DNA from: Ianthella basta
Lineage: Eukaryota; Porifera; Demospongiae; Verongiida; Ianthellidae
DNA: 64,000 bases
NCBI GenBank assembly: GCA_964019415.1
Contig: OZ025876.1
Location: 5,504,793 to 5,568,792 of the forward strand
Reading direction: 5' to 3'
The first letter of the stretch is position 1. Each line of letters begins with the position of its first letter. The notes under the pieces are model-generated. The model saw only the letters and a program-made list of their open reading frames with translations. It was not told the origin of the DNA and made no database searches. Both the position numbers and the translations under genes were made by a program. This document shows positions 24,812-64,000 of this stretch, piece by piece.

Positions 24812-27599
24812 TTAATGGCTCATGCCATCTGGGGGTAGTCTTCGGTCAGTGGTGAATCCTCGTCTTTCTTCATACACTACGGTTGGCCGGAGATGAAAAC
24901 AGAGAGGGATATGAAGTTTGTTAGTTTCCTCTTGTGCAGTCAGATTCCCTGAGTTTGAGGAGGAGGATGACAGCTGATTGTGGATATGTGAAACTGCACA
25001 TAGTGGATAATGAGATGCATGCACAAGAGTTAGGTATGTAATCCACTGAGTAATTGTCCTGTTTGGGTGATGCTGCACATTTTACATTCTGATGGGATTG
25101 TGTGAAACTCTGTAAGCCACCAAGACTGACACATTAGGTAGTTGTGGCAATTTATCTGAAGAGAAATTCATGGTTTACCATTTAGTTTAATTTGTTATAA
25201 TTATTACAATACTGGAGCATGGTAATGGCAGAGGAGCCTTCTAACATTGCCAGCTGCAGATATAGACCACTTTCCCCATGACATGACAACATAATAACCC
25301 TAACTATACCTCTATTACTGTTCTCATCAGTGACAGTGTCAGTGGACACATTAGCAACTTCATGGCCAGACATTGATGTGGTGTCTGTAGAATTGAATCT
25401 GCATGCATGCATGTCACAAGAGGTTGTCGCCAGGTATAATAGACACAGCAGATCGATAAAATATGCACTCAATGAACTTTTGCATGTGGACTCACAAGAT
25501 CTAGAGCGTTGCCTACTGTATCAACTGCACACACATTGTTAGTGCAATAACTTCATGCACTTTCCCCTGGGCTATTGCATGTACTAGACTGCTTGGTATC
25601 ATTTCAATGTGCAAAAAAGCTGCTCTTTCCAGTGATGTATTACAGTAGCACATTTAGTACAGCTGCGATTGCTGTGACTCAACTTAGTTTGATTTTGTAC
25701 AGGAGCAGCCCTCCTGGGGTTGTGTACAGTGGCTTCCTATACATTGACAGTGTGTTCCCCATGCAAGCATGAGATACACCTATGTGTTATAATAGTCTTG
25801 TTCTCCAGCCCCTATTATGCACCATAGGCCCATGGAAGCAATTAAGACTATTGGGAAGCATCTGCGAAGGCAGAGCAATGGAATGTTGTAACTTTCTCCA
25901 TTGGAATGGAGTCCTATTACCTTATCTATTTTAGGTCATTGAAGCCACAAAAATACTCTATTCATCACATGCACTATACATTGTTCGTGTTTACATAGGA
26001 CATATTTGACTGACAGAATGTGCTATAAGTAATATATATAGTATAGTGATTGCGCAACTATAGGGATTTAAGCATTGGCAGGTGGTCCTATATATGTGAT
26101 ATAGACCTGAAAAGAGGTCTGATATCGGATCAACTGACTTTAACGGACACGACGATATTATGGTATAATGACGTCACCGGAAGCATTCTGTGACAACCCC
26201 GACATCTTTGGGCTAGCTTCGGTTGCCTCTTCAAGAACTTAGCTTTGGGCGCCCGCTATAACAACTTAGCCTTGGGCGTACGCTATAACAACTTAGCCTT
26301 GGGCGCACGCTATAACAACTTAGCCTTGGGCGCACGCTATAACAACTTAGCTTCGGGCCATCTGTAAAGCTAGGGTTAGGGTTATGTTTTGTGTTTGTTA
26401 TAGAATGTGCCCAAAGCTAAGTTGTTGAAGAGGCAACCGAAGCTAGCCCAAAGATGTCGAGGTTGTCACAGAATGCTTCCGGTGACGTCATTATGCTATA
26501 ATAATTATAGTCGTGTCCGTTAAAGTCAGTTGATCCGACAGGTTATTGGACAGCTCGCGGAGATCGCGGTCGGAGCAGAAGTTGTCGTGAGGTTTAGTGC
26601 CAGCGATACCTCGGCGCAGTGGCTGGTTTGCTAGACTGGGACCCTCATAAGAGCCAACAAAGTGGAAGCAGCAGAGCAGGTTAGCTCGTATCCCCGTATA
26701 ATCCCCGTTACGCAACGTGCACAATATAATGTTTAATATAGCTAAAATGTCTTCCATACGATTCCTCACTTTCCTCTTCTGCTCTTGCCTCCTCAAGAGA
26801 AAGACACCTTGGGGCCGGTTCCCGATTTCTGCTGCCTCTCTCAGCGGGGAGAGTCCTGGCGATGCGTGAGATACCTTGCGTCCACGAACTAACATTTCAC
26901 TGCCATGAATAACCGGATAAAGGGTGAACATGTCTTCTTTCTTCTGTTAAAAGGCCCGTCGCTCTCTAAGATCACTCCCGACGTATGATTTTTGTTCAAG
27001 AGCAGTCGTTCGTTAACGCCTATGGTTAACACGTCGGCCATTTTTACTCGTACGAGTGAGATTTTTACTCGTACGAGTGAGATTTTCACTCGCACGAGTA
27101 CGATTTTCACTCGCACGAGTACGATTTTACGCTAGATTCACCTGCGTGTTGTCTGGCTAAGTATTTTTAATCGCTACTGTAAATGCATGTATGTTGCAAA
27201 TACATGCATGGGACGCCATGGGGTAGTTCTGTTACCATTGAATGCTGTACTACAGCTAGTGTACAAATTAATCAGAAAACACAGCAGCCCAGGGCGAGGC
27301 GATTGATTGGCTATTCTTACAGGATGCTTACAAATACACTTTTCGTGATATCTCTACTCGCATAAGGCATTCTACCCAGGCCATGTCCAGCTAGGCTTCT
27401 CAGGAACAGGGACAGACTGGGAGAGAATCACCAGGTCACCAATTGATATTGTAGCCATAATTATGTATATGCATGGGTCTTACCGCTTTTTCTTGCAGCA
27501 AATTCGCAGGCAGCAGCGGAATGCTGAAACCACGAGTCGCCAGAACATGATATAAATCTTGTACACGACGATGATAGCTCGCCATATAATCCTGATAAC
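24812..27599 (-). CDS. Receptor family gene F (5' part uncertain)
   Basis: Exons 27599-27484, 25398-25310 and 24993-24812 (TAA), with phases 0, 2, 1, total 387 nt (128 aa). Exon 1 encodes a hydrophobic, membrane-type helix followed by a Cys/basic juxtamembrane run (FRCCLRICCKKKR). Exon 2 carries STDTTSMSG..VSTDTVTDENS. Exon 3 carries VSHIHNQLSS, QEETNK, the conserved tyrosine VVYEERRG and the end LPPDGMSH. Exon 1 opens in phase 0 after a good acceptor, so an upstream exon is expected. The sequence immediately upstream (27661 onward) is a retrotransposon LTR, which may have broken or displaced it. The 3' end faces WD40 copy 3 tail-to-tail. Function unknown; inferred membrane signalling protein. 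Confidence 0.65.
26126..26537. mobile_element. Foldback element with internal 27-bp tandem array
   Basis: Arms 26126-26250 and 26409-26537 are reverse complements over about 125 bp (cggatcaactgactttaacg at the outer end), with few mismatches. The loop contains about four tandem 27-bp units (26253-26361: cgctataacaacttagcc, ttgggcgca). The arm-inner motif acttagctttgggc is the same sequence as the tandem unit, so the array appears to have grown from the arm end. It lies in the first intron of gene F. Confidence 0.9.
27046..27128. repeat. Four tandem palindromes around ctcgtacgag / ctcgcacgag
   Basis: Four ~20-bp units, each with an actcg.acgagt palindrome separated by gatttt-type spacers. The first two are perfect (actcgtacgagt); the last two carry cgcacg. 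It could be a binding-site array or a decayed repeat. Confidence 0.85.
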
Positions 27600-27660
27600 C
27601 TACAGTGGACCGAAAGCAATCGTACCGGTGTGGTTGTATTGCTACTATACGCAATGCGCA

Positions 27661-28231: not shown

Positions 28232-28399
28232 CATATATGTCCCACCTGCGCGAGAGCCATCAGATCCTCATGTGTGGTGTCCTCCAATTGCCCGTTGTGC
28301 GTACTTAGAGTATACTCAACCCCGTACTGGACTAACACAACGGAAGCCTAGCAATTCTATTCAGAGCTATGTGCACAATGACTTGTAAGTCGATCTCCT

Positions 28400-28725
28400 T
28401 TCAGACTACACCCGCACATAGCTATAACACCAACATCATGTAATGTGGTCACTACAACCACAAGCCAGTATAACAAAGTTGAACCAGAGAAAGAAGCCAT
28501 ATATGGGAGACTTACACCCCCACATAGCTATAGCACCACCGTGTAATGTGGCCACTACAACCACAAGCCAGTATAACAAAGTTGAACCAGAGAAAGAAGC
28601 CATATATGGGAGAGGCGTAATTGCTGCCAGCCAGAATGTCCATGGTGTAACACAGAATGGTAGGGCAGGCATGATAGTCAAAACCTCCTCATTCAGTGCA
28701 TGCTCTATACACTTTATGTGGTCCA
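28400..28725. repeat. Tandem ~100-bp repeats, also at 31029
   Basis: Two direct units (about 28408-28507 and 28508-28612) share accacaagccagtataacaa, agttgaaccagagaaagaag and ccatatatgggaga; the following 28615-28725 adds cagaatgtccatggtgtaac. A diverged copy of the whole block lies at 31029-31245. Confidence 0.85.
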
Positions 28726-28784
28726 GTATAACAATGAAAGTTGAGCCAGAGAAAGAAGCCATATATGGAAAGGCTTATCATCAC

Positions 28785-28880
28785 AAATAGTACCCCACCT
28801 CCTATTAAATGACACCTCAACACATCCTTCTGAAGCATTTTGCCCTCCAGAGAGCCTAACTGTCACATTGGGAAGGAGAT
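28785..28880 (-). pseudogene. First half of an SRCR domain
   Basis: After an acceptor at 28881-28882 the minus strand reads VTVRLSGGQNASEGCVEVSF then NRRWGTICDD, the canonical start of a scavenger receptor cysteine-rich domain. The frame then enters the 28.4-kb repeat (KPFHIW) without a donor, so the domain is cut off. The complementary C-terminal half lies on the plus strand at 29188. Confidence 0.8.
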
Positions 28881-28954
28881 CTGTGAAACAGGACAAGTGG
28901 ATGAAAGGGTGCTGGACGCCCATGCTTAATGAGCAGAGACAAAACATAGACTGT

Positions 28955-29190
28955 CCATTAGTAATAGTATTGGCAGGGTACCATTGAAGCAAACCTTTGA
29001 TCTTGAACTATGTATACACAGAGGGCTAGCATTTGTGCACACAATGACTTTGTCTAGCATGCTAGACCCTCTCTGTCCACTAACAATGACTCTGCTTTCA
29101 GCAGTATCCATAGTTACAACTATCTAGTGGCACCACTGAAAGTGTTTTGATCGCTGCAACCACATTTTGAATAGCTGGTCACAATAGGTC
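28955..29190. repeat. Inverted repeat, left arm
   Basis: Reverse complement of 30047-30284 over about 236 bp with a few substitutions and small indels. It lies between the two SRCR half-domains, and its inner end coincides with the acceptor of the SRCR exon at 29188. Confidence 0.9.
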
Positions 29191-31287: not shown

Positions 31288-33033
31288 ACTAGAGAGGTAT
31301 CGGATGTCTTCCCAGGGACAGAAGAAGCAGCTGGAGAGACACAACCTGGCTGACAGCTCAGTGCAGGTAAGGGATGCATGGGGCAGTGGGTGGGGTGGAG
31401 CAGTTATAGGGGTGGGGCAGTGAATGAGGGTAGGGCAACAGGTGTGGAGCAGAGAGGGTAAGAGTAGGAAAGTGGGAAGAACGGAGCATTTGTAAGGATG
31501 GGGCAATTGGGTGGAGGTGGGGCAGTCGGACTGTGGTTGGGGCGGTGATGAATGGGACAGTGTGTAGGGCATGCACGTACGTATGGGATAGTGGGAGATA
31601 TATAGCATAGGATAGTGACGGATGGGTGATCCTTTTGCAGCATCAGACCCTGTGTTACTGTACTATATATGAGGTAGACATGTTCTACCTTGACAAACTG
31701 ACTACTTTGTGCATGTGTGGTTAAATTTTTGCTGTTCAATGTCACTACAAGAATAGCCATTACAGTTGATTTTCTTTTCATGTTCTCCATCTTTCTCTAT
31801 GGTAAGTGGAATGAGATATGCAGACAGATATCTATACTTTGGAGGAATTGGTCTTGTAGTTATTGCAATATTCACACCTCTGAGGAACACACCCAAGGTG
31901 GGTGGGGCACAGGCACACAGAGGTGTGGCTTTAGGACACTGGGTGGGGTAGAAGGAATTGAACAGAGGGAAGTATACTGTCACTGAGTGGAGGCATTCCT
32001 TATAACTTGCATGTTGGAATGGGGTCGCTATTTGCAAGGGTACTCCCTAATGATTTCATCTTGTTATTTCCTCACCCACCCACCCACTCACACACACACA
32101 CGGTAACCTGTATCATGTAACATAATTATGTGTTCTCACTGTGTGTAGGTGTGGGAGCTGTTCACAGAGAATGTCAGCTGGCTGGGGGCCACTTGTCGTG
32201 TGACCATGGTCGGCCACACCCACACCGTCCGCTGCCTACAGTCGGACCACAACAGGGTCATTAGTGGCTCCTACGACCACACTCTCAAGATATGGGACAT
32301 TGCCACCTGGCAGCTGCACACACACACTGAGGTAAGAGGTGGCAGTGTGGCTGAAAGTTCAGAGCTGCTGTGCATGGGCAGCCTAGTGCCTGGTGTTATC
32401 CTGCTCTGTTGTGTAAAGGTATCTAATACATGATGTATTCTGTGAAAACACATTGTCTTCCACTCTTCCTGTTCTGCTGGTAAATTGTTGACTCATTAAA
32501 GTTAGTCTTGTGCATCCCGTAAAGGTGTAAACTCAAACTCACACAGTGCCACCAGCACCATTGCTTTTGTTTCAGTTATCTGACCATTCAAAGGTGTGCT
32601 GGCTAGTGCAATTGTGTGTTCTGCAAGTATTCACACTCCATAAATGTACCAGGACTGTGTGTGGGAACTGCCAATAATAGTCTGGTCAAAGCTTGCTGTA
32701 TGTATGTATGTAGCAGTGATGTTGAGGTAATATACATAATTACACACTTGTCCTTTCCTCACTGTGTGCAGAGGACACACAGACCATGTTGTCTGTGTCC
32801 AGTTCAAGGACGACATGTTGGTGTCTGGATCTGGTGACTGTACCATCATTGTGTGGGACCTGTCAACGTACAAGATGAAGCGTACCCTGAGGGGGCACAA
32901 GGCAGCTGTGACAACACTGCAGTTTGACAGCAGTCGCATCATCAGTGGGTCACTGGACCGTCTCATCAAGATATGGGACCTGGGAACTTGGAAAGTTGGT
33001 GCATGGGGTTTGGGGTGAGTGTGCTTTGTGTGG

Positions 33034-33077
<44 letters not shown>

Positions 33078-33260
33078 ACGCGTGTGTGTATTGTGTTTGC
33101 ATGTGTGCATGTGAGACAATTGTACTTTCACCCCATCCCCTACATGTAGTGCATGCATACTCTGGACTGGATCCACTCGGAGGGTCACACAGGTGTCATC
33201 TGTCACCTCCAGGCCAACCACTGGAAGATGGTCAGTGCTGCAGATGACAAGACACTCAAG
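31288..33260 (+). pseudogene. WD40-repeat gene, copy 2, frameshifted and 3'-truncated
   Basis: Exons 31288-31366 (LERYRMSSQGQKKQLERHNL), 32149-32331, 32772-32994 and 33150-33260 are recognisable. It supplies the region upstream of the first blade (VWELFTENVSWLGATCR) that copy 1 lacks in this window. Two defects: exon 32149-32331 is 183 nt and ends in phase 0, but the next exon must be entered in phase 2, so the spliced frame would stop soon after. The last exon (VWSLDSGERLL..) is absent, because homology to copies 1 and 3 breaks at about 33411, where tactttgcag becomes tactttgcgttatac. Without the last exon the final blade cannot close. Confidence 0.75.
31380..31570. repeat. G-rich degenerate minisatellite
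   Basis: Recurring ggtggggcagtg-like words in the WD40 copy 2 intron. Strongly G-biased on the plus strand; proline-rich minus ORFs are artefacts. Confidence 0.7.
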
Positions 33261-34008
33261 GTGGGCACTGGGACCAGAACAGGGCGGGCCTCACAATTGT
33301 ACACAGAAATACATATTTGGAAGATGGCACACTGAATCACCTTCATATTGTACGATTTAAGACAGTCAACAAACCCTTTATCCAGCTCCTCCTCTCCACC
33401 CCTTACTTTGCGTTATACGCAGCGTTATACGAAGGCTAATACATGCCGTAGAGTCATGGGCATATTGCATAATCCTTGTCGGTTACCATTGATCGATGCA
33501 GATATCACGATCATCAAGAGGAGAGAGAAGGGAGTTGATTTGTTTGGGTTAGAGCACAAAATACTAATTGTCAGCCCATTTTGGTATCCTGAGAAATTTA
33601 GACCACTCAGTCCCCGAGGTTCGATCTTGTCCTAATCCCCCAGACACAATTTAATCAGCATTTAACTGTACATTACATGGACAGACAATGTGCTGCTAAT
33701 AGTAGGCTTGCTAAAGACTGATATGGTTGCTGTGATTGATAGATCTCTCAAGAGTACAACATTATATATGAGTACTTCCCTCACAGAATAATACAAGCTT
33801 GGGAAAGTATAAAAGGGAACCTGTTTTGTCTGTCAAACAGCAGTCACAAAACATATTGCACATGCACATGTTTGAGTAGAAAGCTTATAAGGTTACGTTA
33901 CTGGAAAATATTACATAAATAATACTGGATAATATTATATTATAAATAATAGTATTGTGGATCTCCACATAATTATAAGAATGTTGAAGATGATAGCATA
34001 AATATACT
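33261..34008. other. Intergenic between WD40 copy 2 and gene E
   Basis: Contains a CpG-richer patch (33410-33640, ORF without domain) joined at the truncation point. From about 33770 it shares ctcacagaa.atacaagcttgg with 24755-24775, i.e. the flank duplicated with the WD40/receptor module. Confidence 0.5.
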
Positions 34009-35437
34009 CTAATCACTCATGCCATCTGGTGGTAGTCTTGGGTCATTGGGTCTCTGTTCATACACTGCGGTTTCCTGGTGGCGAAGATGGGGAGGGGTAC
34101 GAGATCTATTAGTTTCCTCTTGCACGGTCATACTCCCAGTGGAGGAGGTGGAGGAGGTGGAGGAGGTGGACAGCTGATTGTGGACACGTGAAACTGCACA
34201 TGGAAGAAAATGAGATGTGTGCATGCATAAGAGCTACCTTGCAGTAGTGTTACTAATAATTATAACATTTTGAATTATAACTTACTGATTATTATTTTAC
34301 TATATATAGACAAATGTGGGGCATTATGGCAGCTATGTACGTACATGTATGTACATGCACACTACCACATTTGCACACAACTGGCACAATTACACAATCA
34401 CACTTACAATGCATGTACAGACCAGTAAGGAGGCTGAGGAGATGTGTGCATGGCGTGATGTAAGGTAATTAGACAGGTGCTGCTGCGATGGTGGCATACT
34501 GGAGTTGCAGTAGAGGATGCATAGCTAGTGTGCACCAGAATTATAATGTTTATCCATCGACTGGGCTGTAGCTAGGAATTTAAGTTTGTATTCCTTTCCT
34601 TCTAGTCAGCAATTGCTGGAAGCTTGCTATGAAGAATATTCCGGAAGTTTGCAAGCTCCATTTGTCATCATCATCGTTGCCTATTGCATCATCACCAATT
34701 AACTGGAGTCCTTTGGAGGACTATTGTTCACTGAAAGTGAATGCTATTGTAATTAAATTAAGACATTGCTTTTTCATTTCGATGTACATTCTGTATGACT
34801 TATAATCAGTACGAACATTCACTGCAATGTATTAGGAACATTGCAAGTATAATATATGTATGCAAGGCACTATAGATATATAGCTGAACATTGGCATTTT
34901 AATTTTGATCCACCAAATGCTAACAAATCACAAACATCATACTGTATTAGACACACCTCCACTGCTGTCCTCATCAGAGGCAGTGTTACTCGACACATCA
35001 GCGATAAATCCAGATGTTGTGCTGTCTGTCGAAGAGCCTGCATCTGGCACTGGACCACCGGTATGGGCAAAGCCATTCCTACAGCTGTTTCTCCTGCATA
35101 CGCAATATACATAAAACTATATATGTAGATAGCTACACAATAAAGCATAATGCAGTCTTCATAAGTATGTTCATGATCACTTAGCTGTACACATGTCCTA
35201 GTTTATCAGCCCATACCATTGGCTGATCAACTTGTCACCATTATTACATTGCAGTGGCTACTTTAATTTTTCAGAATCACACCATGCTGCATATTCATCT
35301 CACTGTTTTCGCTTGCAGCAAAAGCAACTCCTCAAGCAGCAAAAGAATACTGAAACCAAGAGGCGCCAAAGTTTGATGCACAACCTTCTCACAACATGGC
35401 TGATAGCTCTCCATGACATCCTGATAAGCTCTTTCAT
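34009..35437 (-). CDS. Receptor family gene E
   Basis: Exons 35437-35304, 35093-34957 and 34193-34009 (TAG), phases 2 and 1, total 456 nt (151 aa if the exon-opening ATG is the start). Exon 1: basic/hydrophobic segment with LWRLLVSVFFCCLRSCFCCK, a membrane helix running into a Cys-rich juxtamembrane stretch. Exon 2: RRNSCRNGFAHTGGP then SSTDSTTSG..SSNTASDEDSSGG, matching exons of B and D. Exon 3: VSRVHNQLS, four repeats of STS, VQEETNRSRTPP, the conserved AVYEQRP and RLPPDGMSD. The exon-1 ATG directly follows an acceptor, so an upstream exon with an ectodomain may exist. It faces WD40 copy 2 tail-to-tail. Confidence 0.7.
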
Positions 35438-37156: not shown

Positions 37157-38775
37157 TGGGATATGGGAATCTTATTAATAAAACTAGCAGAGAAGGGCGC
37201 CTTCGGCACCCTCCTCTGCTCCGGCGCCCAACGCAGGTGCTTCCAATGCCAGTGCTTCTGATGCAAAGCACTTCCAAATCTGGCTACTGAATGATAGCTA
37301 TAGATGCTGCAGTTGCAGTTAGCTATAGAGTTGCATGCAGCTGACTCCTCTTCCACCATGAATCACCTTCTGCAAGGTCAAGCGTCTTGTATTGCCCTCC
37401 AAATTAAACAGAACTGACTCATGATGGCCCCTTTGAGCTGATTCCTGGTTGTTCTCTTGAGTTGACTCCCCTCGAGCTGGCTCCTGCGTTTCCCTTGGTG
37501 CTGACTCCTGTGAGTGAAGGTTGAGTGATGGTCTTGGATTTCTGACAGTTGTCGTCGATTCATAAGAGCTCTCATCAACCCTGAATGTCTTGACTTCTTG
37601 GTTAGTCCGGTGTTGCCCTTAAATGTTCGGCATATGCGCACTGCAACGGTTGCAAATTGCATTGTTTGGAAGAAACGTATTACGATGACGTCATGAGATC
37701 ATTGCGCAAGCCTAAACCCCGCATAACTTGTGCCAATCCTTTCGCCATCGAGCCGCTTTCACTTGCGTAAGACGGCGCTTTCCGCTATATAGCTTATATC
37801 ACCCACAGCCTTCTACATTGTGCTAAAACTATAGCAAAGAAGCCGTCGCACCATCTTCCCAGGAGGAGTTGTGTAACAAAGGAATTAGCTTCGAATTCCG
37901 TAATCTACTTCGCTTTCCTCCGTAAAACAAAAATGGCGTCCTATAGTAACGTATGGCGAGTTGGCGCAAAACCTTCATTTCGCAATCTTTCGCAGGGAAA
38001 CCCAGCCGAAGACACCCTCCGGATAGCGCTTCGACATTCGGACCGCGTTTTCTGCGAACCCTCCGCACGGTTCCCGAGATTAGTGCGGACAAAAAATCGG
38101 CCTAGCTCCATTATACATACATACATACATGAATCGGCCTATTACAGCACCGGAGTTAGAAAGTAAGAAGCTAAAATGTGTGCAAGTTAATGAAAGAGTT
38201 CCAGATGGATACTGGCCTATCAGTAGCTAGCTAAAATGATTCGTTTTCCAATTGGCCTGTTGGTGGTTACTCTTTCTTTCTGCTTTCTAACCACTCTCGA
38301 CTGGCACTGATGAAGCTGTGCGACACTCAGGGGCGTCACCCACCTGAGCCAGGATCTCTTTCACTGTGGCACGCGATTGAAGGTGTCTACACAGTGTCTC
38401 CACTGCCCACACGTAGCCGCCGCAGCTGATGCCACCGCAGAAACATCGCGCGATTCGCCAATGGCTGTGGAGAAGTTAGGAGAGCCTTCTATGAGGAGGA
38501 TGGTTGGATGTTTGGCGTGGCGGCCCATAGAAGACGATTGTGTAGTCCCCAGAGATGCTCGATGGTCTGCGTCGTTCGGAAGTGGTACTCGCTGCTGACG
38601 AGGAACCTCAGCATTGTTACTGTGGGTTCTGTTCTAGTTGGAAAGGTCGTCGAGCAGTGAAAAAGTGTGCCACTTCCATGCTGATGTCTGCTTGGGTGAG
38701 CGCCCTCTGACACCACGTGGTCTCTAAGCTGCCATCTTGATGACGTCACAACCCCCTGCTCCATTATAATAAGAT
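37157..38775. mobile_element. 1.6-kb insertion, unclassified
   Basis: The flanking unit (WD40 fragment then Death exon) is present without it at 47855-48480. There actctaat is followed directly by aatgtggtac, whereas here 1.6 kb intervenes. The insert is CpG-richer, with repeated gctgactcctg words (37330-37510) and ORFs 37378-37662(-), 37829-38092(-) and 38489-38764(-) without recognisable domains. No clear terminal inverted repeats seen. Confidence 0.65.
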
Positions 38776-38850
38776 AATAATGTGGTACAGTAACAATTTA
38801 AGTATGTTCGTGCATGCATGCTAACAAGTATTTCAGCTGCTACGTTCTAT

Positions 38851-41800
38851 CTATGGACTTTGGTGAATAAGTTCTCTAAGCTCTCGGCTCACTTCAGTGC
38901 CACAGCTCCTCTCCACTGCATCCAGCACACTAGACCAGGTCCTAGGGAGAGCCCCACAGCCCTGCGCTCTAGCAAGCCAACGCCTGAACATCTCGCGGCA
39001 GTGAAATTCATTACTTCCGTTGGGTGTCTTGATTGCTTGCAGGACATAGTCCTCAATGTCTAACTCTAATCCAGTAGTCTCCCATTTTCCAGCCACACGG
39101 ACAACCACTTTATTATTGAGGTCTCTCAGTATAGGCTTTTGGTGCAGTGGGTCAAGGGGAGCTGCATGAAATGAAGGAGTGAAACAGTACTAGCAGTATG
39201 AGCACCTAGTTTCATACAGCATGCACATACCATGCATTTATAAACCATATACGCATGCGCATATATGCGTGCCCAACACCCATGTGCATGCTCCCCCACA
39301 TGTGCACCCCCTCCCATGTGTGTGTGTTGCACACCTGTACAACATACAGCACATGCATGCAATCACACACACACATCAAACACTTACGTACGTATACTCA
39401 CTCACTCTATACCCACAAACGGCCACTCTCCATTACGCTGCATGTGCAGCTGTGCATGTTTGACCACTTACATGAAGTAACTCGGTCAAGAGACAAACGC
39501 CCTGAGAGGTGGACTGTTGTTCCAGTTGGTGTAGATTGTGCAAGGCCTTCAGAAGCAGCTGTAGTGAACAGTAAATGGCATAAGATAAAACAACTCAATG
39601 TGATGACAGCATGCAACACAGTCAATGCTAGTTTTGTCTCACTTCTACGTATAGACTGAATATACAACTTATCAAGTTTGCATCCTTAGTGCCTTGTTTA
39701 ACAATAAATATGATAATTATAGTACAGTACACATACCTAAGCATCTGTGCAGCAGCACCAAAAACTTGACACATTGTTACAATGGATGACCGCTGGATGT
39801 GGCACAAGCTCGACATAAAATGGAGGCCAGTTATGAGTACATGCATACATACTGGTAACAAAACATTGAAACTTCAGAAAATGTTGCCTCTAGCCTCCAG
39901 TAGAGCCACAGATTACAATCAGTAATGGTTAGAATCAACAGTTGAAGGTACTTCAGGACCTGAATGTTGGGACAGTGCACTGCCGGACCGGCCTGCAGGG
40001 CCGGTTCTGGTGACCACTAACTGAGTATACCTAGGTATGTACCTAATGTGTATACATACATTAAACAGTAGATCGAATTATATTGGTATACGCAGAGTAC
40101 ATGCATGTATGCATACTATGAACACATACTATACTAAAGACACCTACTGTATTCCACCAAGTATACATCAGCAAATTCTTCCACACAGTAAAACACTCCA
40201 CACAAACTCTCCTAAATATGATCACTCACAAGAGGGCAAACGCTCCAATAGTTCAATTGCATTCCCAGCATTCACACTCTGTGTAGTGCTTGCTGGAGTT
40301 TGAAGAATAGCTGTAATGAAGACACACAACGCAATGTACGAACACACAGTATAAACTTATGTACGTATGAACACACAACATGAAGTACATAAACACATAG
40401 TTACGTGCACAAAGTCCACATAATGCATACATAATGATATGCATGCTTCATATCTAGTGGGTTTTGAAGAACACATGATACACATGTGTACATAGTCTCA
40501 CTATGCACTGCCTACTTACCTGCTGCTTCCCACACGGATATTCTGGTAGGTTGAGAGCTAGCCTCGGCTTGAGCAGGTGCAAGTGTGAGTGATGGAGGAG
40601 ACGCTGTGGTGAAGAGCAATGGTAGAAGACAACATAAGCGAAGCATGCATCTGTTCCAGCAAGGAGGAGTTAGACTGCTCTTGCAATGTGCAGGTCATGC
40701 ACACAACACACATAATTATATAGAATGCAGCACAAATTAGATAGTATTGTACATGTGTGGTCATAGAAATGCTAGCGCTTGTGATGCAAATTTTGTCTGT
40801 CCAACTACAGTCATGCCGATACAAATACACATGTACACTGCCTACTCACCTGCTGCAGCCTGCTGAGATATGCCTGCCTGAGGGGTAGCCTCAGCTTGAG
40901 TAGGGTTCAGAGTAGGAGGTGGAAGAGCAGCTGCAGTGAAGAGCAACATGCAGTATAAGACAAATGCACATGTATGCTGTGGTGGTAGCAAACTAGCTGT
41001 ATACAAGAAGGAGCTAGATAAATGCATTAGCTCCGGTACATGCATGCCTTAAAAGCTAGAGACATGCATGTACTGTTGGTTGAGGATTGCATCTTATAGC
41101 AAATAGGCCAGAGCTACAGTATTAATTTGTTCACAGGAGCATTAGGAACCTTAGCCATTAACACATGCATGTTTGCAGTAGCAGTGTACAGACAGAGGTG
41201 CATATCACTGTGAGTGGTTAGCAGCAGTGATATATAATTGTGGTATATGCATTCCTGAGATACAGGGGATAGAGAGGTGGATATAAGATCGATCTACATA
41301 CTCCCAATGGCATTCACTACAAATGTATGAGTACAGGGGCCTGGGCACACTTTACAGTCACCGCAGGCCTTTACAGGGCTTTACAGACATGCTACAATAC
41401 ACGTGGAAGTGATCAGTGTACTGTGACTGATGCACGCTCACGTTTCACTGTTTCATACACTTTGATTGGAAATGAAAATTGTTCCCTATCTGTTCCAGAA
41501 ATTATGACTTCCAGTACTCGTACCCTTGAAGCGGCTTTATCAAAGTCAGGAGGAGTCCTGTAAATTACAGCATACTGGATAGCTGGTGGGTACAGTTTGC
41601 TGGCAACTTTGCGTTTCAGCTCATCCTTGGTGTAACGGTTATGAAACACAACATCATCCTGGTGAACCTGAAGAAATGTATTCCATGACAAAGACACATG
41701 CATTCTGAATCTGCTTCCTTCACACAAATAATGCCTCAGATTCTAAAATCATAGGTTTATGCCTTCAACATACATGCATGGTACAAACATATGAAAACAG

Positions 41801-44013: not shown

Positions 44014-44131
44014 GATCACCTATGAGACAAAGGAAGCAGATCAGCACATGGGTGACAAAGTATAGCATGCAGAGTGGGACTCATAAAAGTTAGTGTACGT
44101 CATGATATCTAAGAGAGATACATGTACTAGT

Positions 44132-46883: not shown

Positions 46884-47279
46884 TTTAATATAAATATAGC
46901 AATTCACAAACACAACAAGACCACTTTGGATGAACAAGAATACATGCAAAGTACTATTGAAGCATACACAGCTACTTTATGTTTGCAATGGTGTGCACAA
47001 GTGTGTCAGCATTAAAGTCATGTGCTGCATCTTGATCCTCCAGGGGAAGGTCTGGGCGGTGTGTGTGTCGTATATTTAACATCATGCGGTTGTGGGATAT
47101 CTGTTGCAGTCTCCTCTTGTACGTTTGGGGGAGGGTTGTCTGCAGCTGCATGTCAAAATGACATACAGCTTAAATAGAAGCTCAATGAATTGATCATGAT
47201 AACCAGGAAAACACGTTTAACACAGTACTGTGTATGGCAAAATAGATATTACATGTGCTATGATTGAATGCGTTAATCT

Positions 47280-48167: not shown

Positions 48168-48478
48168 CTATGGACTCTGGTGAATAAGTTCTCCAAGCTC
48201 TCGGCTCACTTCGGTGCCACAGCTCCTCTCCACTGCATCCAGCACACTAGACCATGTCCTGGGGAGAGTCCCACAGCCCTGCTCTCTAGCAAGCCAACGC
48301 CTGAACATCTCGCGGCAGTGCAATTCATTACTTCCATTGGGTGTCTTGATTGCTTGCAGGATATAGTCATCAATGTCTAACTCCAATCCAGTAATCTCCC
48401 ACTTTCCAGCCACACGGACAACCACTTTATTATTGAGGTCTCTCAGTATAGGCTTTTGGTGCAGTGGGTCAAGGGGAG
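48168..48478 (-). CDS. Death-domain terminal exon (orphan or alternative exon of gene B)
   Basis: Intact 311-nt exon with acceptor (catgcag) and stop (TAG), nearly identical to gene A's last exon: PLDPLHQKPILRDLNNK, ITGLELDIDDYILQAIKTPN, HCREMFRRWLAREQGCG, ending HQSP. It enters in phase 1, the same phase in which gene B's exon 51181-51045 exits. It could therefore be an alternative 3' exon of gene B, giving a Death-domain tail instead of the tyrosine tail. Alternatively it is a non-functional duplicate carried with the WD40 fragment. Confidence 0.7.
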
Positions 48479-48822: not shown

Positions 48823-51800
48823 CTAAATCCCACCCGGTGGTTGTCTTGGCTCAATAGTGACTCCTGGTCTGTCATCGTACACTGTAGCTGGACGGGAACG
48901 AGCAAAGAGTGGAGGAGTGTTCACTCTAGTAGCCTCCTGTTGTACCATCATAGTCACAGAAGAAGCAGAGGACACCTGACCATGGGCATCTGATGCAAAG
49001 AGGAGTAAGATCACAAATAGCATGCAGTCACAATCAGTGAGTGGTGAAGCCTTAACCTGTCACGTGCATTACCTGTCAACTATGCAATGAACTACACATA
49101 ATTATACAATTATAAATACTAGCTGAATACCTGCCCTTCGGGTGGGTTCTCACACTATCGCTTGAAATTTGAGCATTTAACCAAAATGAATCAAAAATGT
49201 CCATGTAATTGGAAGCATTCCGTAGACTTGCTCCATAAAACTCTGTGTGAGTAGAATTTCTTTTGTTTATTAATCTTGTCTAATTGAGTCCAGCAGCAAA
49301 GGCGCTAACCACCATAAGTCACTCCCATATTGCCATGATATAACACTCTTCTAATTTCGATGAAGATTGGTTGAAAATTGAAGGAGTTTCCAAACAACGT
49401 CAATGGGCTCTCCAAACTGAGGAATAGCTATGGGCTTATTGCATGAGAAACTATAGCAACAGCAGCAAGCTATCCTGCTCTACGTAGCATCCTACACACA
49501 TTGTCATCAATTACAAGAGCCAGGCTGACGTCAGCTCTCAAGAAACAAGGCCATTTGCTTCAGTAACACATTGTGACTGTCAGGCTTGTACCAAGTTCAA
49601 CCATTGTTTTTGCACAACGGTCACCTAAATTTCACTCAGGTGGTGTGTAGTGCTTTGCACTACTTTGGAACTACTGCCAATGAAGAAGGAATACCTTACC
49701 AGGTCTGGCACACTGCCACATTTGGACACCATGTATTTATGCATGCTTCATGACTAACAAGTACAATGTCATGTACATACGTAACAGTTACAAGCCGCCC
49801 AAGAGGTGTCTGTGGGATTTTGAGCACGAAGCTCAAGGCATGTAGGGCCTGAGCGCTGAGTGGTCTAAATCCAAGCAGACAATGATTGGTGGCATTTAAG
49901 TTTTACAGATCCAAAACTGCTCTCAAATCCAATCAAAATGTCTTTCCTCTGTTATCTTGATGATGTCCTTGTCATTATAACCGATAACAACGGAGTGGAA
50001 GCCCAATAAAAGAACTCTCCAACACCTGTAAACCTTCCTGCTGCACCCCTTCACCGTGAGCCCTTAATCCTACTAACTATGTAGGGTGGTCATCTGTCCA
50101 GAACTGACTGAATAGTCTGCAGCAACAGCGCACACATTACAGCAGATATAAAATGGCTGTGATGACGTCATATAACCGCACACGCACTCTGCCTACAACA
50201 TACTATATGGGATTTATAAACCCCCACGCTCCGCCCACAACGTACTATTATTGGATTTAGATTCATGGTAGGGGGAGAGTTTCTGAGTGTAAGCACAGCG
50301 ACTGGATCAACTTCAATTAACTTCAACTCAAGCTTCAAATCAACTTCAATTAATATTCAGGACGTTTCGGTCTGAGGACCTTTCTCAACTAGTACAATAA
50401 CTGACTGGGACCTTTCTCAACAGGTACAATAACTGACTGACTGTTATTGTACCAGTTGAAAAAGGTCCTCGGACCAAAACGTCCTGGATATTAATTGAAG
50501 TTGATTTGAAGTTTGAGTCAAAGTTAATTGAAATTGATCCCGTCGCTGTGCTTACGCTCAGAAACTCTCCCCCTACTAATATCCTTACGCAGCAACGAAT
50601 CTTTACTGCATCATTTAGAATCATGTGTGAAGCGATTGGAGAGCTTCTCAGAGATTCAGAATCATCGCTACGTGGGATTAATAGCTAGCTATAGACATTT
50701 GAGTCTATGCAGCTACAAGGAAATTAGGAATGCAGAGTGAACTTCTCGGGAATGTGGCTTATCATGATGATAGAGTTACTATCGAGTTACTAGAGTTTCT
50801 ATGCTTTTTCTGCTGGCCATTCCTACATCTTGTTTAATTCTATAGGAATTTTATACACTAGTTACGTATAAATGTCGCCAATTGCAATCGTGATGCCACT
50901 GTTTCAGGTGCTTTCTTGCAGCTGGGCGTATTCTGATAGCAAAACCACATTTAAAATCAAGGTGTGTTAAAATGATTATGGCACTTAATACACTACACCG
51001 GGACTCACCTACACATGTAACAAGAGTACTAAACTACTACACACCTTCTTCACTGCTGCCCTCATCGGAGGCATCATTAGTAGACACATCAGTACCAGCT
51101 CCAGACATTGATGTACTGTCTGTAAAATAGCCTGCCAGTGGGCGTCTGGTAGGGACGAAACGGTTCCTACGGCCATGTCTTCTGCATACATGTACACCAA
51201 ATTTAGTATGTGCATACATACAAAACGCAATTTACACAAGGTGTGGATTAATTTATGCACATCTCACCGGTGTCCTGTCTCTGACAGTGCAGTACAAATG
51301 GAATCTCTACTGGACAAGCTACCAGCAGGGAGGAGCTCTTTTTCCAGTTCCTCTTCCTCACTGCTGCTAACATCTAGAAAGGCACTGGGCAACCCATCCT
51401 GATGCAACAGTGTGCTATAGAGAGAAAACATCTATATACATTACAATAAGATTGAAATTAACGCAGGAACTCACAACTATGTCGAACAATGGTGTTGTTC
51501 CATTTTTGTGACTGATAGCATGTCTTTGCGCACAAGTGCATTAGTACTATAGGATAGTGCATGCCTGTCACATTTTCGGTGTGTCATTCATGCCATACAA
51601 CTGTCAGTTGCCATGAATGTCAGGAGATGACATACAGAAGGTAATCATTTCCTTATACAATAATAGTTGCAGTGACTGTGTCCACTAGCCAGCCATGGGG
51701 ACATGTCTTATGTAAACAATACAGCTTCTGCATGGACGCTATCAACCTTCTGTATGTATTCCCTCTCTTCTCCAGGTGGGGCTAAAATGGTACAACTTCA

Positions 51801-53348
51801 GTACGAAGACAAGATTCTATCCTATGTTAAAGATTCACAAACTACTGATTGTGTTCTCCTATAATGGGTGTCTACGTTTCCCATACTTGATATCTAAAAC
51901 GTGCCTCCCACATAGGATACGATTAAATGGCAGTAATTGATAGCGTGCTGCTTGGTTGAGGGGCTAAGTAATGAAAGCACTACAGTAATCGAAGTACAGT
52001 TCTGTCATTCAGCGTTGCTATGTGGGATTAGTCTGCAAATCAATCTGTTCAAGAATTTCGCCAAATGCCATGCAGTCTCTTGATCAAGAGTGTGCATTCA
52101 CCTGGGTCCAAATGAGGTTTCCTTTTCCTCCCCTCCTTCCTCAAGGGATTCAAAGCTTGTCCTGGAAGGGTATCCATTAGTTTCCTGTAGATTACTCAAA
52201 GCCAACTCATCATCTTGCTTCTGCTTCATTAGCCATTCATAAGTAACAATCAAAGTGTCAACACTGTAGAAAACACAGTTTATTCATACATTTGTCAACT
52301 GCTGCTAACAACCAGAGAATCACTGTTAATGCATGCAATGTTATCTCACCATTTATACCTGCAGTTTTGGCAACATTTCCGATTTGAAAAGCAGCAAACA
52401 AAACACCCCACACAATGGACCAAACAGCAAATACTCAGAACTTCCAAAACACCAAAAATGATCAAAGCGATTGTTACTTCTACTGTGACTTCACAATAAG
52501 CAAGCACATACAGCCACACAGCTGTTAAAGTAGTAGTGGTGTTAGTCAGCTCCTTTCCATAACTTGCACTTGAATCAATGTCCACAACGGAGTATTCAAC
52601 AGTAGAGTCATTCTGATACCACAGTGAAACTCCAAAGTAGTGGTTAACAATGGAACCTGGCAAACAATCAGGTCTCATCTCTGGACTGCAGACAACAACT
52701 TCTTCCAAATTAGTGCCTATCTCAAAGCATGCTGACACTCTTGTGTGGTACTTCTTTAGTACACACAGGCTGATCACTCCCAAATAGTCTTGTGTCAACT
52801 TGAGACTGTAGTCACTGGATAGTTTGTAGCTACCTTCCTGCAAAGAAGCTCTCTCTGATATAGACATGTTGCGCAAATCAGGGAGATTCAAGGCATTTGG
52901 ATCTTCACTTTCAAAATAAAGCGCATTACAGTAAGAATAATCTGATGCAAAATTACCCCCAATCATGAAAAATAATAAGATGGCTGCGGCAAAGAGAAGT
53001 AACACAGTAATGCATATCATAGCAGCCAGCCGTAGGTAGCCGTAATACTTTTCCACCTACGCATATAAAGGGAACAAGATAGTAAGAGTTAGCTAGCGTA
53101 CAAAGCAGGCAGGCCTCATTAAGGCAATAAAACTCTCAACGCCATGTACGTAGCTAGCTAGCTAGATATCCTCACAGAGTGGCAGACTAGCTACCATAGC
53201 TTCCAAGCTAAAGTTAGAGCGAAATGGTCAGCAGAACAACAGGCTAGAAGGCAAAGGCTTTGTTTAGGAATTAACTTAATATAATTGTACAAATAATCGT
53301 TAGCAGGACTTCACTTACTTTGGAAAATAAGTACGGTATCAAAGCCAT
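48823..53348 (-). CDS. Gene B: two-helix receptor with ITIM-like and terminal tyrosine motifs
   Basis: Exons 53348-53319, 53056-52359, 52263-52102, 51414-51268, 51181-51045 and 48989-48823 (TAG). Phases 0,2,2,2,1; total 1341 nt (446 aa). Start chosen at MALIPYLFSK, which joins in phase 0 to VEKYYGYLRL. Helix 1 (MICITVLLLFAAAILLFFMI), loop of ~160 aa with LPDLRNMSISE, VSACFEIG, RPDCLP and YFGVSLWYQNDSTVEY, helix 2, then a Cys cluster (CCLVHCVGCFVCC). Tail: IVTYEWLMKQ (V-T-Y-E-W-L, ITIM-consensus), DVSSSEEEELEKELLPAG, RRHGRRNRFVPTRRP, STDSTSMSGAGTDVSTNDAS, ATVYDDRPGV and the end PRQPPGGI. Both termini are predicted cytoplasmic. No known family recognised; the loop is shared only with gene A here. 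Role in receptor signalling is an inference from the tyrosine motifs. Confidence 0.8.
49000..50260. other. Intron 5 of gene B: repeat-derived
   Basis: Contains gctgaatacctgcccttcgg (49123, related to the hairpin word at 45439) and a segment with cgatgaagattggttgaaaa (49358), both typical of dispersed elements. No coding exon recognised. Confidence 0.45.
50267..50575. mobile_element. Foldback element in gene B intron
   Basis: Arms 50267-50402 and 50441-50575 are reverse complements over about 135 bp (gtaggggg, gagtttctgag, gtaagcacagcgac outermost; ggacctttctcaac innermost). The loop contains a tandem duplication of the arm's inner end, gacctttctcaac.ggtaca. Confidence 0.9.
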
Positions 53349-54872: not shown

Positions 54873-56407
54873 CTAATCACTAGTGCCATCTGGTGGTGGT
54901 CTTGGGCCACTCTGTTTGCAAGTTTCATATACAGGTGGCTGGGGGCAGGGAAAGACTGGAGATGAGCCAGTACCAGAAGTTTCTTCCTGTGCTTGTGTGG
55001 TCCCTAAATCAAAGGAGAATATAGTTTAATATTGAAATTAGTTTAGATTAAAGATTTGCGTTGTGGTAATGGCAATTGGTAATTGTAATTGGCAGTAATT
55101 AATTACACTTTCACAATTATATACAATTACATTTCTCCTTCTCTGTCCCTAAGTGCCCTAGACACTCAAAGGCCAAAATCCTCTGATTAACCTACTCTTG
55201 CAAACCAAGTTGATCCAACATTCTCTGTACTACTTGTTTCTGTACTTTTTGTGCCATCCCTAAATCCTTACTATTTTTGTAGAAAATTTTTATCAATTCT
55301 AGTTTCTGTGCATTTTTACGGTGTGCAAGTTGCACATGCTAAGCTGCAACCACAGGACATCGGTGCAGGTACCTAGGACTCTATTTCCTGGAGCTCGTCA
55401 GCACCCGTTCCGCAGCCACCGTAAATAGTGAGAAACGGTGACCGGAAGCTAACCGAGTATTAAGTAAAATGGCGGGATGTGCATGACCACGGATATCCTT
55501 CGAAACGACGCGCAAACTAACTTAGACCAAAGCTTGTCTCGTATGCGCCTCCGAACGGATATCTGACGGTCGTGCGAGGCTATTAAGCAGACATTGAAGG
55601 AACAGTAGTAGGAAAACTGGCGGTCGTCAAAGTCCTTGTAAAATGGCGTCTAGCGCGTAACGTCTCCCGATAGACCGGTAACCGTAATGAGTGATACCTG
55701 CTAGCGGCGGTTTCTAACCTACAAAAGAATACAGTTCGGTTAATTTGCATTAGTTCGATAGCTAAGTCTGTTCGTCAGTTACAGCTGGAGAAGAAGAATG
55801 AAGACGAAAATGGATGTTTTCGAGTGCCATTTTTTCGCCGACAGACCATGTTCGCTTGCCTTCCAGGTCAGTTTAGTTTAAGAATAGTTGATATTTAACC
55901 CTACTTAGCTTTGTTTAGGCGCTTTTCGAGATTTCGTTCCTATACCAATGTATTGTAAATTCGAAACACCCTGTACCATACTTACATAGAGAGTACTATC
56001 GTATTCTCTGATAGGTAGGGCGGTCGAGTGCTATGCTAAGGACCGTATGTATATAGGACATTGTTTGACTCTATCCATTGTGTGCGCCTGCTCTGTTAGT
56101 GCAGGTATAATGAGATGCATGATAGCGCAACCACAATGATTATGAGATGCAAAATGGCTGGTATAAATAGCATTGAGATTAGAATCAAACGGTGTATATG
56201 TTATGTTTATATACGTACGACACAGACAGAGCCACCGTACTCCTCGTCGTAAGGGGAAGGGGCTCGCTCAGCATCGCCCCAATTATAAGCTCTACTTCAA
56301 GTAAATTCGAGAGAAGAATCCCCTGTCTCGGAGCTGCGTACGGGCCTGCTCTCAGTAATGTATGCAACAGTGTGTACAACCATCTCACCTTTGATACATT
56401 TATACAG

Positions 56408-56443
<36 letters not shown>

Positions 56444-56530
56444 TACGTTAATCACAATGAACAGAAGAGTGGTACTCATCCTAATCGCATGACTGATCGC
56501 TTTCCATAGCTTCCTGAGTGGTCCTTTCAT
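54873..56530 (-). CDS. Receptor family gene C, short form with polycysteine run
   Basis: Exons 56530-56389 and 55003-54873 (TAG), joined in phase 1, total 273 nt (90 aa from the exon-opening ATG). Exon 1 begins MKGPLRKLWKAISHAI, continues through a membrane-type helix (TTLLFIVINVF) and then a run of about ten cysteines encoded by a CTG/CAG-type repeat, ending LYKCIKG. Exon 2: TTQAQEETSGTGSSPVFP, PPVYETCKQS and RPPPDGTSD. The middle exon present in B, D, E and F (STDST..) was not found; the direct join still keeps frame because exon 1 ends in phase 1 instead of phase 2. An upstream exon cannot be excluded. Confidence 0.6.
55330..55900 (+). other. CpG-rich module, copy 2 of the 4.65-kb module
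   Basis: Shares ordered phrases with 4650-5200 (aaaatggcg, ggtctagtaac-like, cagttacagctggagaagaa). It opens an ATG at about 55799 (MKTKMDVFECHFFADRPCSL) followed by a donor-like cag|gtcagt at 55868. Opposite in orientation to gene C and inside its intron. Same two readings as for copy 1. Confidence 0.3.
56409..56441. repeat. (CAG)n trinucleotide repeat, coding in gene C
   Basis: About eleven CAG units. Read on the minus strand in gene C's frame they encode polycysteine just after the membrane helix. Confidence 0.95.
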
Positions 56531-60113: not shown

Positions 60114-60230
60114 CTAGTTGCTGCCTTCTTCCTCAAGGAACTCAGAGCTTTGTTTAGAAAGATTAATGTTTTGATTATCTTCGTCTGTTTTACTCAATGC
60201 TAATTCCCATCTTCCAGCTCCCTCAATTGT
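60114..60230 (-). pseudogene. Orphan receptor-tail exon (member G)
   Basis: After a ttacag acceptor it reads WELALSKTDED..LSKQSSEFLEEEGSN and stops. It is homologous to D's exon 63865-63692 (EELAINCQEE..YKQSSEFLKEGG) and B's 52263-52102. The tyrosine of the ITIM-like motif is absent, and a stop replaces the donor. No membrane exon is visible upstream. Confidence 0.65.
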
Positions 60231-60457
60231 CTGTAAGTTACAGCAAACACATTGACATTGTATAGCTGCATGACTTGAGGGAATAATACATCATTAGCCC
60301 TCTCACACTCCCATATACATTGCATAATAATTTGAACATGTATGCCTTTTTAGGGCACATTTCCTTCCATAGAGTAAGGCAGACTACTGAGTTTGGTATC
60401 ATTTTTGTTCACAGAAGAATGGAGTATCTGCTCATGAGGATGGTTTTTGGTTTCCAG

Positions 60458-60547
60458 TGACAACCGAGATGCAATTGTACTAAAATGCAAAAATCTAACG
60501 CAAAAAACGGACGACATATTTCAGAAATTTGTAAACTTTGTGAACAG
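60458..60547 (+). CDS. Possible CARD-like exon fragment
   Basis: Between an acceptor (gtttccag) and a donor (aacag|gtgtgg) the plus strand reads DNRDAIVLKCKNLTQKTDDI and FQKFVNFVNR, whose spacing resembles the last helices of a CARD domain (NRDxA..L...L..k..dxFxkFv..L). It is short and isolated, with no upstream half found, so the call is tentative. Confidence 0.25.
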
Positions 60548-60559
60548 GTGTGGAGGCAT

Positions 60560-62063: not shown

Positions 62064-64000
62064 CTAATTGCCATCCGGTGGTAGTCTTGGCTCAGTAGTG
62101 ACTCCTCCTGGTCTTTGTTCATACACTGTGGTCAATTGACGAGCAAAGAGTGGAGGGGTATCCACTGCAGTAGCTTCTTCTTGTACCATTGCATATGCAG
62201 ACAAGGAGGACAGCTGCAGCTGATTGTGGATATCTAAAAAAGCAATAAAGAACTTATCAACCATGGCAATGTTGATATTCTAGCTACTGGTATTTTGGGT
62301 GAACTAGATCAGAGGAAGGTTTGATCTGGAAACAGAATAGTAATTGCTATTTTTAAACTGCATGACTCATGGCTATCTATGGAAACCAAGCAGACAGAAT
62401 TCAAATGTGCTACACAAAATTTGAATCCATGCAACCTATAGAAGTGCATAATATCCTAATTAAGGCTCTATCACAGATTCACAGACAGTCACTGATATAC
62501 GTACGTATGGAGTATAACGAATTCTTATACCAAGGCCCTAACTTATCGGATGGGTCTAGAGTTAGCAATTTACTGTAACTTATATATGATAGCATACCAT
62601 TGGCACATAGCTACATTCGGCACAGCCGCCTCAATGTTAAATTGATGTATATACAAAATACATGCCTTCACTGCTGTCCTCATCTGAGGCATCATTAGTG
62701 GACACATCAGTACCTGCTCCAGACATCGATGTACTGTCTGTAAAATAGCCCACTGTTGGGCGCCTGGGAGGAACAAAACGGTTCCTACAGCCATGTCTTC
62801 TGCAAAAGTATACAAATTTCAACAGAATCAAAACTGTCGACATGGGGTATGCGGGGACACTTTGCAACATCAATATACATGCACAGGCATATCTCACCGG
62901 TGTCCTCTCTCTGATACTGCAGTACAAACAGATTCCCTACTAGACACTCGGCTAGTAGGGAGGAGTTGAACTTGTATCTCTTCCTCACTGCTACTAACAT
63001 CCTGATCAGTTTTGGACAATCCATCCTGATGCAGCCTGCTATATAAAAATTAAAGCATACAATTAGGCAGGAAATGAAGAGAAATCTGTGCCTTAGTGGC
63101 ATACAAGTGCATGCATGTACGTATATGGATTGGTCAGCAGTAAATGCACATAATGAATGGATATCCCAATGGATACTGATCATGATATTCAGGAAATGTA
63201 TACTCCTTCAGTTTTCAATGGATAGTGCCATATCTGGTATTGGAATATGGAGAAGACTGACTCGGTCTACTAAGTAGCCAAAATTTGGTACAAAGTAGTA
63301 ATGCTTTGGCTTTGCCATGACATCATTAAAGTTAATAGGTTTAGAGTATAATTATACATTGATAAGAGCAAGAGAAAGTTGTTGCTTGCTGCAGACTGTA
63401 AACACATCGACCGTACAACATAGCATCAGCTACTATTTTACACGTGCGTCTGCGCTCATACAGTGGAACCTGTCTAAGATCGTCACTGTGTTAAGGCAAC
63501 ATACACCATGCACCTCCCTAGCCCCAAATAGCATTAACATAGCATTAAAGCATTGCAGCTGACCACTTTGTAAATAGCAGCTATATACTGAATCAGTGTA
63601 TTGCATTGTATCAACCACATGGTTGATTCAATGCATTGGTCCCACATGCATGCATACACCCTCACTGTCAAGTATGTGTGTGTGAGCTAACCTGAGACCA
63701 AGTAAGGCTTCTTCCTTGTCTCCTCCCTCCTTGAGAAACTCTGAACTTTGCTTATAAACACTTCCTTCAGTTTCCTCTTGACAATTAATGGCCAACTCCT
63801 CACTGTGTTCCTGCTTCATCACAATTTGTTGATAAGTGACAGCAGGGGTATTGGGTACAGGAGCACTATAGATAGTGCAACAAACAACTATATGATTACT
63901 ATATCACACTGACTGGCAAGGATTTGCTTACACAACAAAGAATGCATAACACTTAGACCATATGTATAGTGTGCAGGATGTCGCCTCACCACTTTGGCTT
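62064..64000 (-). CDS. Receptor family gene D (5' part beyond window)
   Basis: Exons >64000-63990, 63865-63692, 63038-62898, 62799-62666 and 62233-62064 (TAG), phases 2,2,2,1, paralogous exon by exon to gene B. Tail: AVTYQQIVMKQ (V-T-Y-Q-Q-I, ITIM consensus), YKQSSEFLKEGGDKEEALL, DVSSSEEEIQVQLLP, RRHGCRNRFVPPRRP, STDSTSMSGAGTDVSTNDAS, TTVYEQRPGG and the end RLPPDGN. The membrane/ectodomain exon should lie just past position 64000; its last 11 bases (ending caaagtg, minus strand) are inside. The exon 62799-62666 ends in an unusual GC donor (gaag|gcatgt) where the paralogues have GT. Confidence 0.75.

Follow-up and report, generated by a model that had tools for sequence, protein, structure and literature searches.

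The question raised by this locus is whether a group of neighbouring sponge genes encodes related membrane proteins whose tails are interchangeable, and what such proteins could do. The locus lies in Ianthella basta (assembly GCA_964019415.1, contig OZ025876.1, here C9). The stretch analysed, referred to as the window, comprises 64,000 nucleotides (C9:5504793-5568792); coordinates given below without a contig or locus name refer to it. The genes, designated A to G, are all encoded by the minus strand. A clustered family with interchangeable tails, as proposed in a preliminary description of the window, is supported by the sequence analysis: loop exons are matched 24 times in the genome and three types of modelled tails are found on homologous loops. 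The family is fairly probably, if not firmly, a tandem and probably lineage-specific group of two-pass receptors whose death-fold tails have been exchanged. This reading is based on the homologous loop exons, the frame-compatible exons and the homology of the Death domains. The tails suggest an immune- or danger-sensor function. The proteins would be death-domain receptors set apart by two spans, an unassigned ectodomain, a tandem expansion and exchanged tails.

A shared exon with two membrane spans

An exon encoding a first transmembrane segment (TM1), a loop and a second transmembrane segment (TM2) is common to gene A (43334-44019) and gene B (52350-53056). Both copies are open frames and are 47% identical; they are the helix-loop-helix exon that the preliminary description attributed to both genes. 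The hydropathy peaks are 2.43 and 2.59 in A, and 3.09 and 2.63 in B. The loop has about 150 residues and six cysteines, five of which are present in 18/18, 18/19 or 19/19 members and the sixth in 10/19.

The genome (209 Mb, 96 contigs) was searched with the loop exon of gene B (cut-off E 1e-3). The 24 matches are located on C9 (18, between 5.548 and 5.825 Mb, a cluster of about 280 kb), C91 (three), C48 (two) and C14 (one). The family extends about 250 kb past the window, which the preliminary description had missed. The iterated profile was run on 294 kb (the window and the stretches L009-L028 and L029-L031), where it found 19 loop exons. Nothing credible was found for these 19 members in Pfam or in NCBIfam (best E 0.021, in a single member, for each); Pfam gave no immunoglobulin (Ig), thrombospondin (TSP) or TNFR-repeat match among them. 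The loop, searched by profile and as a single sequence, has no match in PDB up to E 10. The loop was described as belonging to no recognised named domain, and these searches agree.

Three loop matches (C48:5285-5725, C48:48504-48944 and C91:7721-8161) have equal scores and frame lengths, and two of them are inverted on one contig; these three may be remnants of the assembly or of a second haplotype. Elsewhere on C91, a stretch of DNA shares 72-88% identity with parts of the cluster.

Death-domain, ZU5-type and T1-T4 tails

One combination of loop and tail is found in a compact gene located outside the window. It consists of three exons (loop, a single 68-base linker exon, Death) and encodes 347 residues from Met to stop. 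Within the window, two exons that are 94% identical to each other are located 345 bases behind the last tail exon (T4) of gene B (48168-48478) and 2.9 kb behind the ZU5-type exon of gene A (38851-39161). Both are assigned to the Death domain on account of their relatives. Three exons of the cluster beyond the window score 43.5, 42.4 and 40.4 bits with PF00531 (cut-off 22.6), and all 10 aligned family members match Pfam Death (E up to 1). In PDB, PIDD (E 5.7e-5 and 8.9e-5) and FADD (6.4e-4) are matched by the profile of the family. The exon behind B lies in an 88% identical copy of the block 38775-39386 of gene A, which includes part of an intron. A third Death-domain copy (1797-2167), whose DNA is about 83% identical to the exon of A, is broken by an in-frame TAA.

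Gene A does not carry the T1-T4 tail described below. Its model has 12 exons in frame (among them loop, ZU5-type, UPA position, four linkers and Death) and predicts 833 residues. The loop exon, whose 5' start is not determined, is followed by linker exon 2 (43143-43201), which ends in phase 1. Linker exon 3 (42934-42980; the frame fits, donor GTTTGG) and linker exon 4 (42811-42838), which depends on exon 3, are doubtful. The ZU5-type exon (42086-42675) precedes two exons at the UPA position, 41852-41998 (homologues behind ZU5 in L033, L034 and L035) and 41442-41742 (homologues in L034 and L035). If the donor of the latter is unused, a stop is reached at 41413; both forms are open. Then come two Pro/Ala-rich linkers (40850-40930 and 40520-40603) and two other linkers (40230-40310 and 39472-39558), all four being phase 1-1 cassettes. 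The Death-domain exon, which belongs to the 10-member alignment, ends in a stop.

The ZU5-type exon of A is so called because its relatives, and not the exon itself, match PF00791. It has at least 150 genome matches (the best 150 of 239 candidates). Eight of the matches listed overlap PF00791 matches over the cut-off, on the same strand, by 189-267 bases (C5:1605759, C6:8065534, C2:13230638, C4:7575171, C16:6957932, C1:4574126, C1:4736244 and C10:2527384). ZU5 is the sole Pfam match, below threshold, of three relatives that are 63% identical to the exon. A search of PDB for firmer ZU5 or UPA support gave nothing, and the AlphaFold2 model of the exon alone (pLDDT 37.0) is too poor for use.

Of the 31 best matches to the Death exon, 23, that of A included, are located at most 10 kb downstream of a same-strand match to the ZU5-type exon; this count used 39 of the best 150 ZU5 matches. 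ZU5-Death is thus, as predicted from exon order, a common gene layout in this genome, and gene A has the appearance of such a tail to which a loop exon has been joined. Among the ZU5 matches listed, inspection by eye found none but that of A in the loop-bearing stretch of C9 or on C14, C48 and C91.

Large arrays of ZU5-type and Death exons are found at C6:9.05-9.39 Mb, C1:14.6-15.1 Mb, C13:6.94-7.0 Mb and C9:2.8-7.3 Mb, among the best 150 of 239 (ZU5-type exon), 437 (PF00531) and 700 (Death exon) candidates. About four repeated, helical-looking modules of about 60 residues (LYQEKLVTEQELEDLK...) are located 8 kb upstream of a ZU5-Death gene on C13 (L037:3691-7500). Three of them were scanned against Pfam with no convincing match. 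Given these modules, a ZU5-Death gene elsewhere does not necessarily encode a receptor.

The third type of tail consists of the exons T1, T2, T3 and T4, found in this fixed order; in both B and F the phases of the introns are 2-2-2-1. In the model of gene B, the first exon (53319-53348, MALIPYLFSK) starts with ATG and enters the loop exon in phase 0 through a GTAAGT donor. It is followed, after the loop exon, by T1 (52102-52263, profile E 3e-32), T2 (51268-51414, profile E 1e-27), T3 (51045-51181) and T4 (48823-48989), which ends in a stop; both profile values include the exon itself. A possible alternative last exon (50904-50932, EYAQLQEST) has an in-frame acceptor and a stop. The frame is open over six exons (449 residues, with T1-T4) or seven (549 residues, with the optional Death domain). 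The model of gene F has five exons in open frame (439 residues) and its 5' end is not determined. The window includes only the final bases of its loop exon (63990-64000), which continues to cluster position 64690. The spliced T1 (63692-63865), T2 (62898-63038), T3 (62666-62799, with a GC donor) and T4 (62064-62233, ending in a stop) follow.

Single-sequence genome searches relate these exons to one another more closely than chance would allow. T3 of B matches T3 of F at 3e-19 and that of C only at 0.4; T4 of F matches T4 of B (3e-10), C (7e-6) and D (3e-5). These searches avoid the circularity of the iterated tail profiles, which include the scored exons themselves and give E values of 4e-11 to 3e-32 for T1-T3 and of 6e-14 or better for T4 in the clear exons of the window. 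Five T4 exons are clear (62067-62231, 54882-55025, 48826-48987, 34018-34185 and 24821-24985) and a sixth is weak (47021-47152, E 3e-3).

The loop is absent from genes C, D and G. In its place is a first exon that is short, basic and rich in Cys, and part of the T1-T4 tail is kept. Model C (151 residues) comprises this first exon (35304-35437), T3 (34957-35093) and T4 (34009-34193). Model D (128 residues, start codon not found) comprises the first exon (27484-27599), T3 (25310-25398, donor GTATAG) and T4 (24812-24993). The intron phases from first exon to T3 and T4 are 2-1 in both. Model G (90 residues) comprises the first exon (56389-56530) and T4 (54873-55003).

Homologous tails had been attributed to genes F, E, B, C, D and G. 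Their order and phase are upheld; there are five clear T4 exons, that of G included, for these six genes, and near 60.2 kb only an orphan T1 fragment was found (60117-60212, profile E 3e-12). The tail motifs recur in varying forms, exact HNQLS and VYEQR being found twice each and LPPDG three times. QEE[AT] is present in F, C, D and G; B has QQEA. The family had also been called undescribed and its tail unlike any named domain. The first holds for the loop, which has no credible match. Neither holds for the tails as a whole, as the Death-domain exons and the ZU5-type exon located downstream had been missed.

Some T1 exons carry V[TSA]Yxx[LI], which was compared with the consensus of immunoreceptor tyrosine-based inhibitory motifs (ITIMs), taken to be [SIVL]xYxx[LIV]. 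It is found in B (VTYEWL), F (VTYQQI), L69 and L83, and not in L97, L89 and L76. An ITIM is less convincing than the four copies alone would suggest, as three of the seven tail genes lack it; one ITIM-like match among about three conserved tyrosines is not far from chance.

A probable receptor family and alternative readings

If these genes encode receptors, the proteins would cross the membrane twice and both ends would probably be cytoplasmic. The six-cysteine loop would be outside, and ligand binding would cluster the receptors. The second span would lead into tails that shuffling of exons and segments has exchanged: linker and Death in the compact gene, ZU5, linkers and Death in A, and T1-T4 in B and F, the splicing of these exons being itself predicted. 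Clustered Death domains would nucleate a death-fold complex and trigger immune or cell-death signalling, which members with T1-T4 or without a loop could modulate or compete with.

Several results weigh against this reading. All exon joins are predicted from sequence alone. TM1 is not evident by hydropathy in three of the 19 loop frames (c1 235426, c1 252647 and c2 25904), which may be decayed or have a different first exon. The AlphaFold2 model of the loop, made from the two window sequences only, is too poor for use (pLDDT 48.5, pTM 0.39); its succession of a helix, several strands and a helix is taken as a hint only. Taken alone, the two intact Death domains of the window score 14.3 and 12.2 bits, under the Pfam cut-off of 22.6. 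The ZU5-type exon of A, taken alone, has no Pfam ZU5 match up to E 10. Pfam UPA (PF17217) has no match here, nor in 14 controls, so that the absence of UPA is not shown thereby and the region is called UPA position only. Gene A has an in-frame stop ahead of its linkers, this form having 628 residues, and its exon 3 has a donor of 0.1 bits. The latter can be bypassed, as the end of exon 2 and the start of the ZU5-type exon agree in phase and the two can join directly; exons 3 and 4 are possibly erroneous. The join from T4 to Death in B is compatible in frame, but its donor scores 2.2 bits. The 19 regular donors from which the matrix was built, all taken from the present gene models, score 7.4-12.3. 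Of all GT dinucleotides, 18% score as well. Four other junctions, left out of the matrix, also score low (A exon 3, 0.1; D T3, 0.5; F T3 with its GC donor, 3.8; F T1, donor GTTAGC, 4.8 bits). A low score is therefore not peculiar to B, and these junctions are doubtful too. Among seven T4 exons examined, only that of B has a GT for the onward join. The joining of gene B to a Death domain is possible.

In one alternative, the loop genes and the Death and ZU5 exons are separate neighbours. T4 or the post-ZU5 stop would then be the end of the receptors, and decayed ZU5-Death genes interleaved with the loop genes would be the source of the Death domains found in the window. The Death block of B, a segmental copy with a weak donor, speaks for this, as do the stop and the very weak donor of A and the broken third Death copy. 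However, the compact gene has loop, linker and Death in one frame of 347 codons. It is independent of the weak donor of A, so that the reading as a receptor family stands without that junction. In A, moreover, the junction phases agree, the weak junction can be bypassed, and ZU5 and Death have the order and distance found elsewhere. Separate genes are therefore considered unlikely.

A bolder form of the receptor family, held to be quite unlikely, is a paired activating-inhibitory array of a non-bilaterian, independent of the vertebrate KIR and LILR. Death tails would trigger, ITIM-like T1-T4 tails would restrain and loopless members would be decoys. If so, gene B, with a Death cassette copied behind it, would be a tail swap under way.

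Self/non-self recognition, suggested in the preliminary description, would require receptors with hypervariable ectodomains. The tandem array, the shared tails and the related genes on the small contigs C48 and C91 are consistent with such a role. So is the divergence at synonymous sites (pS), which in seven genes is 0.369 on average for the tails and 0.532 for the loops, the tails being lower in 21/21 pairs (95% bootstrap range of the difference, 0.098-0.228; the pairs are not independent). Conversion of the tails was considered, but the introns between T2 and T3 are mostly 48-63% identical, with one pair at 81% (six of the seven genes, the 1014-base intron of L76 being dropped). With such introns, constraint is as likely as conversion to account for the low divergence of the tails.

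Among paralogues, the variation of the loops does not support such recognition. In a tree of the 19 loops, eight minus-strand loops form one group (88/92) and three compact-gene loops another (100/100); support for the former is 100/100 when these eight are compared only with the three compact-gene loops (eight rows not counted). Within the eight, nonsynonymous divergence (pN) ranges from 0.16-0.38 for the ectodomain to 0.42-0.58 for the TM parts. Among paralogues at least, this is the reverse of what a hypervariable face for recognition would show. The ratio of nonsynonymous to synonymous rates (dN/dS, counting method) is below 1 in all 33 pairs tested of 171 possible (0.28-0.88). Hypervariable allorecognition receptors are thus judged improbable.

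In a further alternative, the proteins would be subunits, with two TMs each and death-fold tails, of an ion channel or of some other multimeric membrane complex, a layout presumably resembling that of P2X or ASIC. Such subunits would also have two TMs, a Cys-rich loop and both ends inside, but the loop has no Pfam or PDB similarity and about half the size that we assume for a P2X ectodomain, which makes this most improbable.

Known systems and other features of the window

The favoured reading, exchanged death-fold tails on a two-pass receptor, combines features of several known systems. UNC5 has Ig and TSP1 domains, one membrane span and cytoplasmic ZU5, UPA and Death domains. The model of gene A has a membrane span, a ZU5-type exon, an intervening region and a Death domain in the same order. 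ZU5 and Death are thus predicted to be C-terminal to the span, subject to one weak junction and with ZU5 assigned through relatives. Homologous exons occupy the position of UPA; the silence of PF17217 extends to the 14 controls. Unlike UNC5, the family has two spans in A and B and an unrelated six-cysteine loop, with no Ig or TSP match in the 19 members. TNFR death receptors share a Cys-rich ectodomain, a membrane passage and a Death-domain tail with the family; they differ by the two spans found here, and TNFR repeats are unmatched in the 19 members. To our knowledge, the known death-domain receptors (UNC5, TNFR) are single-span.

KIR and LILR, the vertebrate paired receptors, have homologous ectodomains on differing tails, some of which carry ITIMs. 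The family has the same arrangement, some tails having ITIM-like motifs. It differs by the lack of an Ig match, by a Death domain in place of adaptors with immunoreceptor tyrosine-based activation motifs (ITAMs) and by the ITIM-like motif being found in four of seven tail genes.

PIDD and the FIIND proteins (CARD8, NLRP1) also have ZU5 followed by a death-fold domain, and the Death domain of PIDD is the best PDB profile match. The family differs in being membrane-bound and in having no leucine-rich repeats seen. The autoproteolytic motif of the PIDD/FIIND ZU5 is HF/S or SF/S (PMC3210808). GHSSLF, found in all four aligned ZU5-type members (this stretch was placed by eye), has Ser where the motif has Phe, and self-cleavage is therefore not predicted.

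The closest theme in the literature (Kaur et al. 2021, PMC8195603) is that of the oyster and sponge death-fold expansions. Proteins with a Cys-rich ectodomain, one TM, DED and TRADD-N are expanded in Crassostrea virginica, and Death/TRADD-N proteins in Amphimedon. Both resemble the family in being expanded, with variable death-fold or other modules and, in the oyster, a constant ectodomain. The oyster proteins differ by one TM and a DED-TRADD-N core, against two TM here, where TRADD-N was not specifically searched. In two other sources, 25 NLRs with a DEATH domain are reported from Dysidea avara (PMC12909245), and DEATH-domain genes are among those altered by microbial cues in two sponges (PMC6208332). 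Receptors with a death domain and two membrane passes were not found described as a family in the open-licence literature, among the best-ranked papers of longer result lists. If the reading holds, a two-span class of death-domain receptors would provide an extra route by which a lineage builds immune or cell-death receptors. The family is a concrete gene set for tests of ligand and output.

Other features of the window include a direct duplicate of 1.4 kb (2673-4060 and 7625-9012, 96.8% identity). One stretch is present in three diverged copies (1-1147, 23377-24094 and 32213-33387; 83-91%), whose plus-strand frames (SGSLDRLIKIWDLGTW) presumably resemble WD40 repeats. A minus-strand frame at 28714-29007 (VRLSGGQNASEGCVEVSFNRRWGTICDD) is taken to resemble an SRCR domain.

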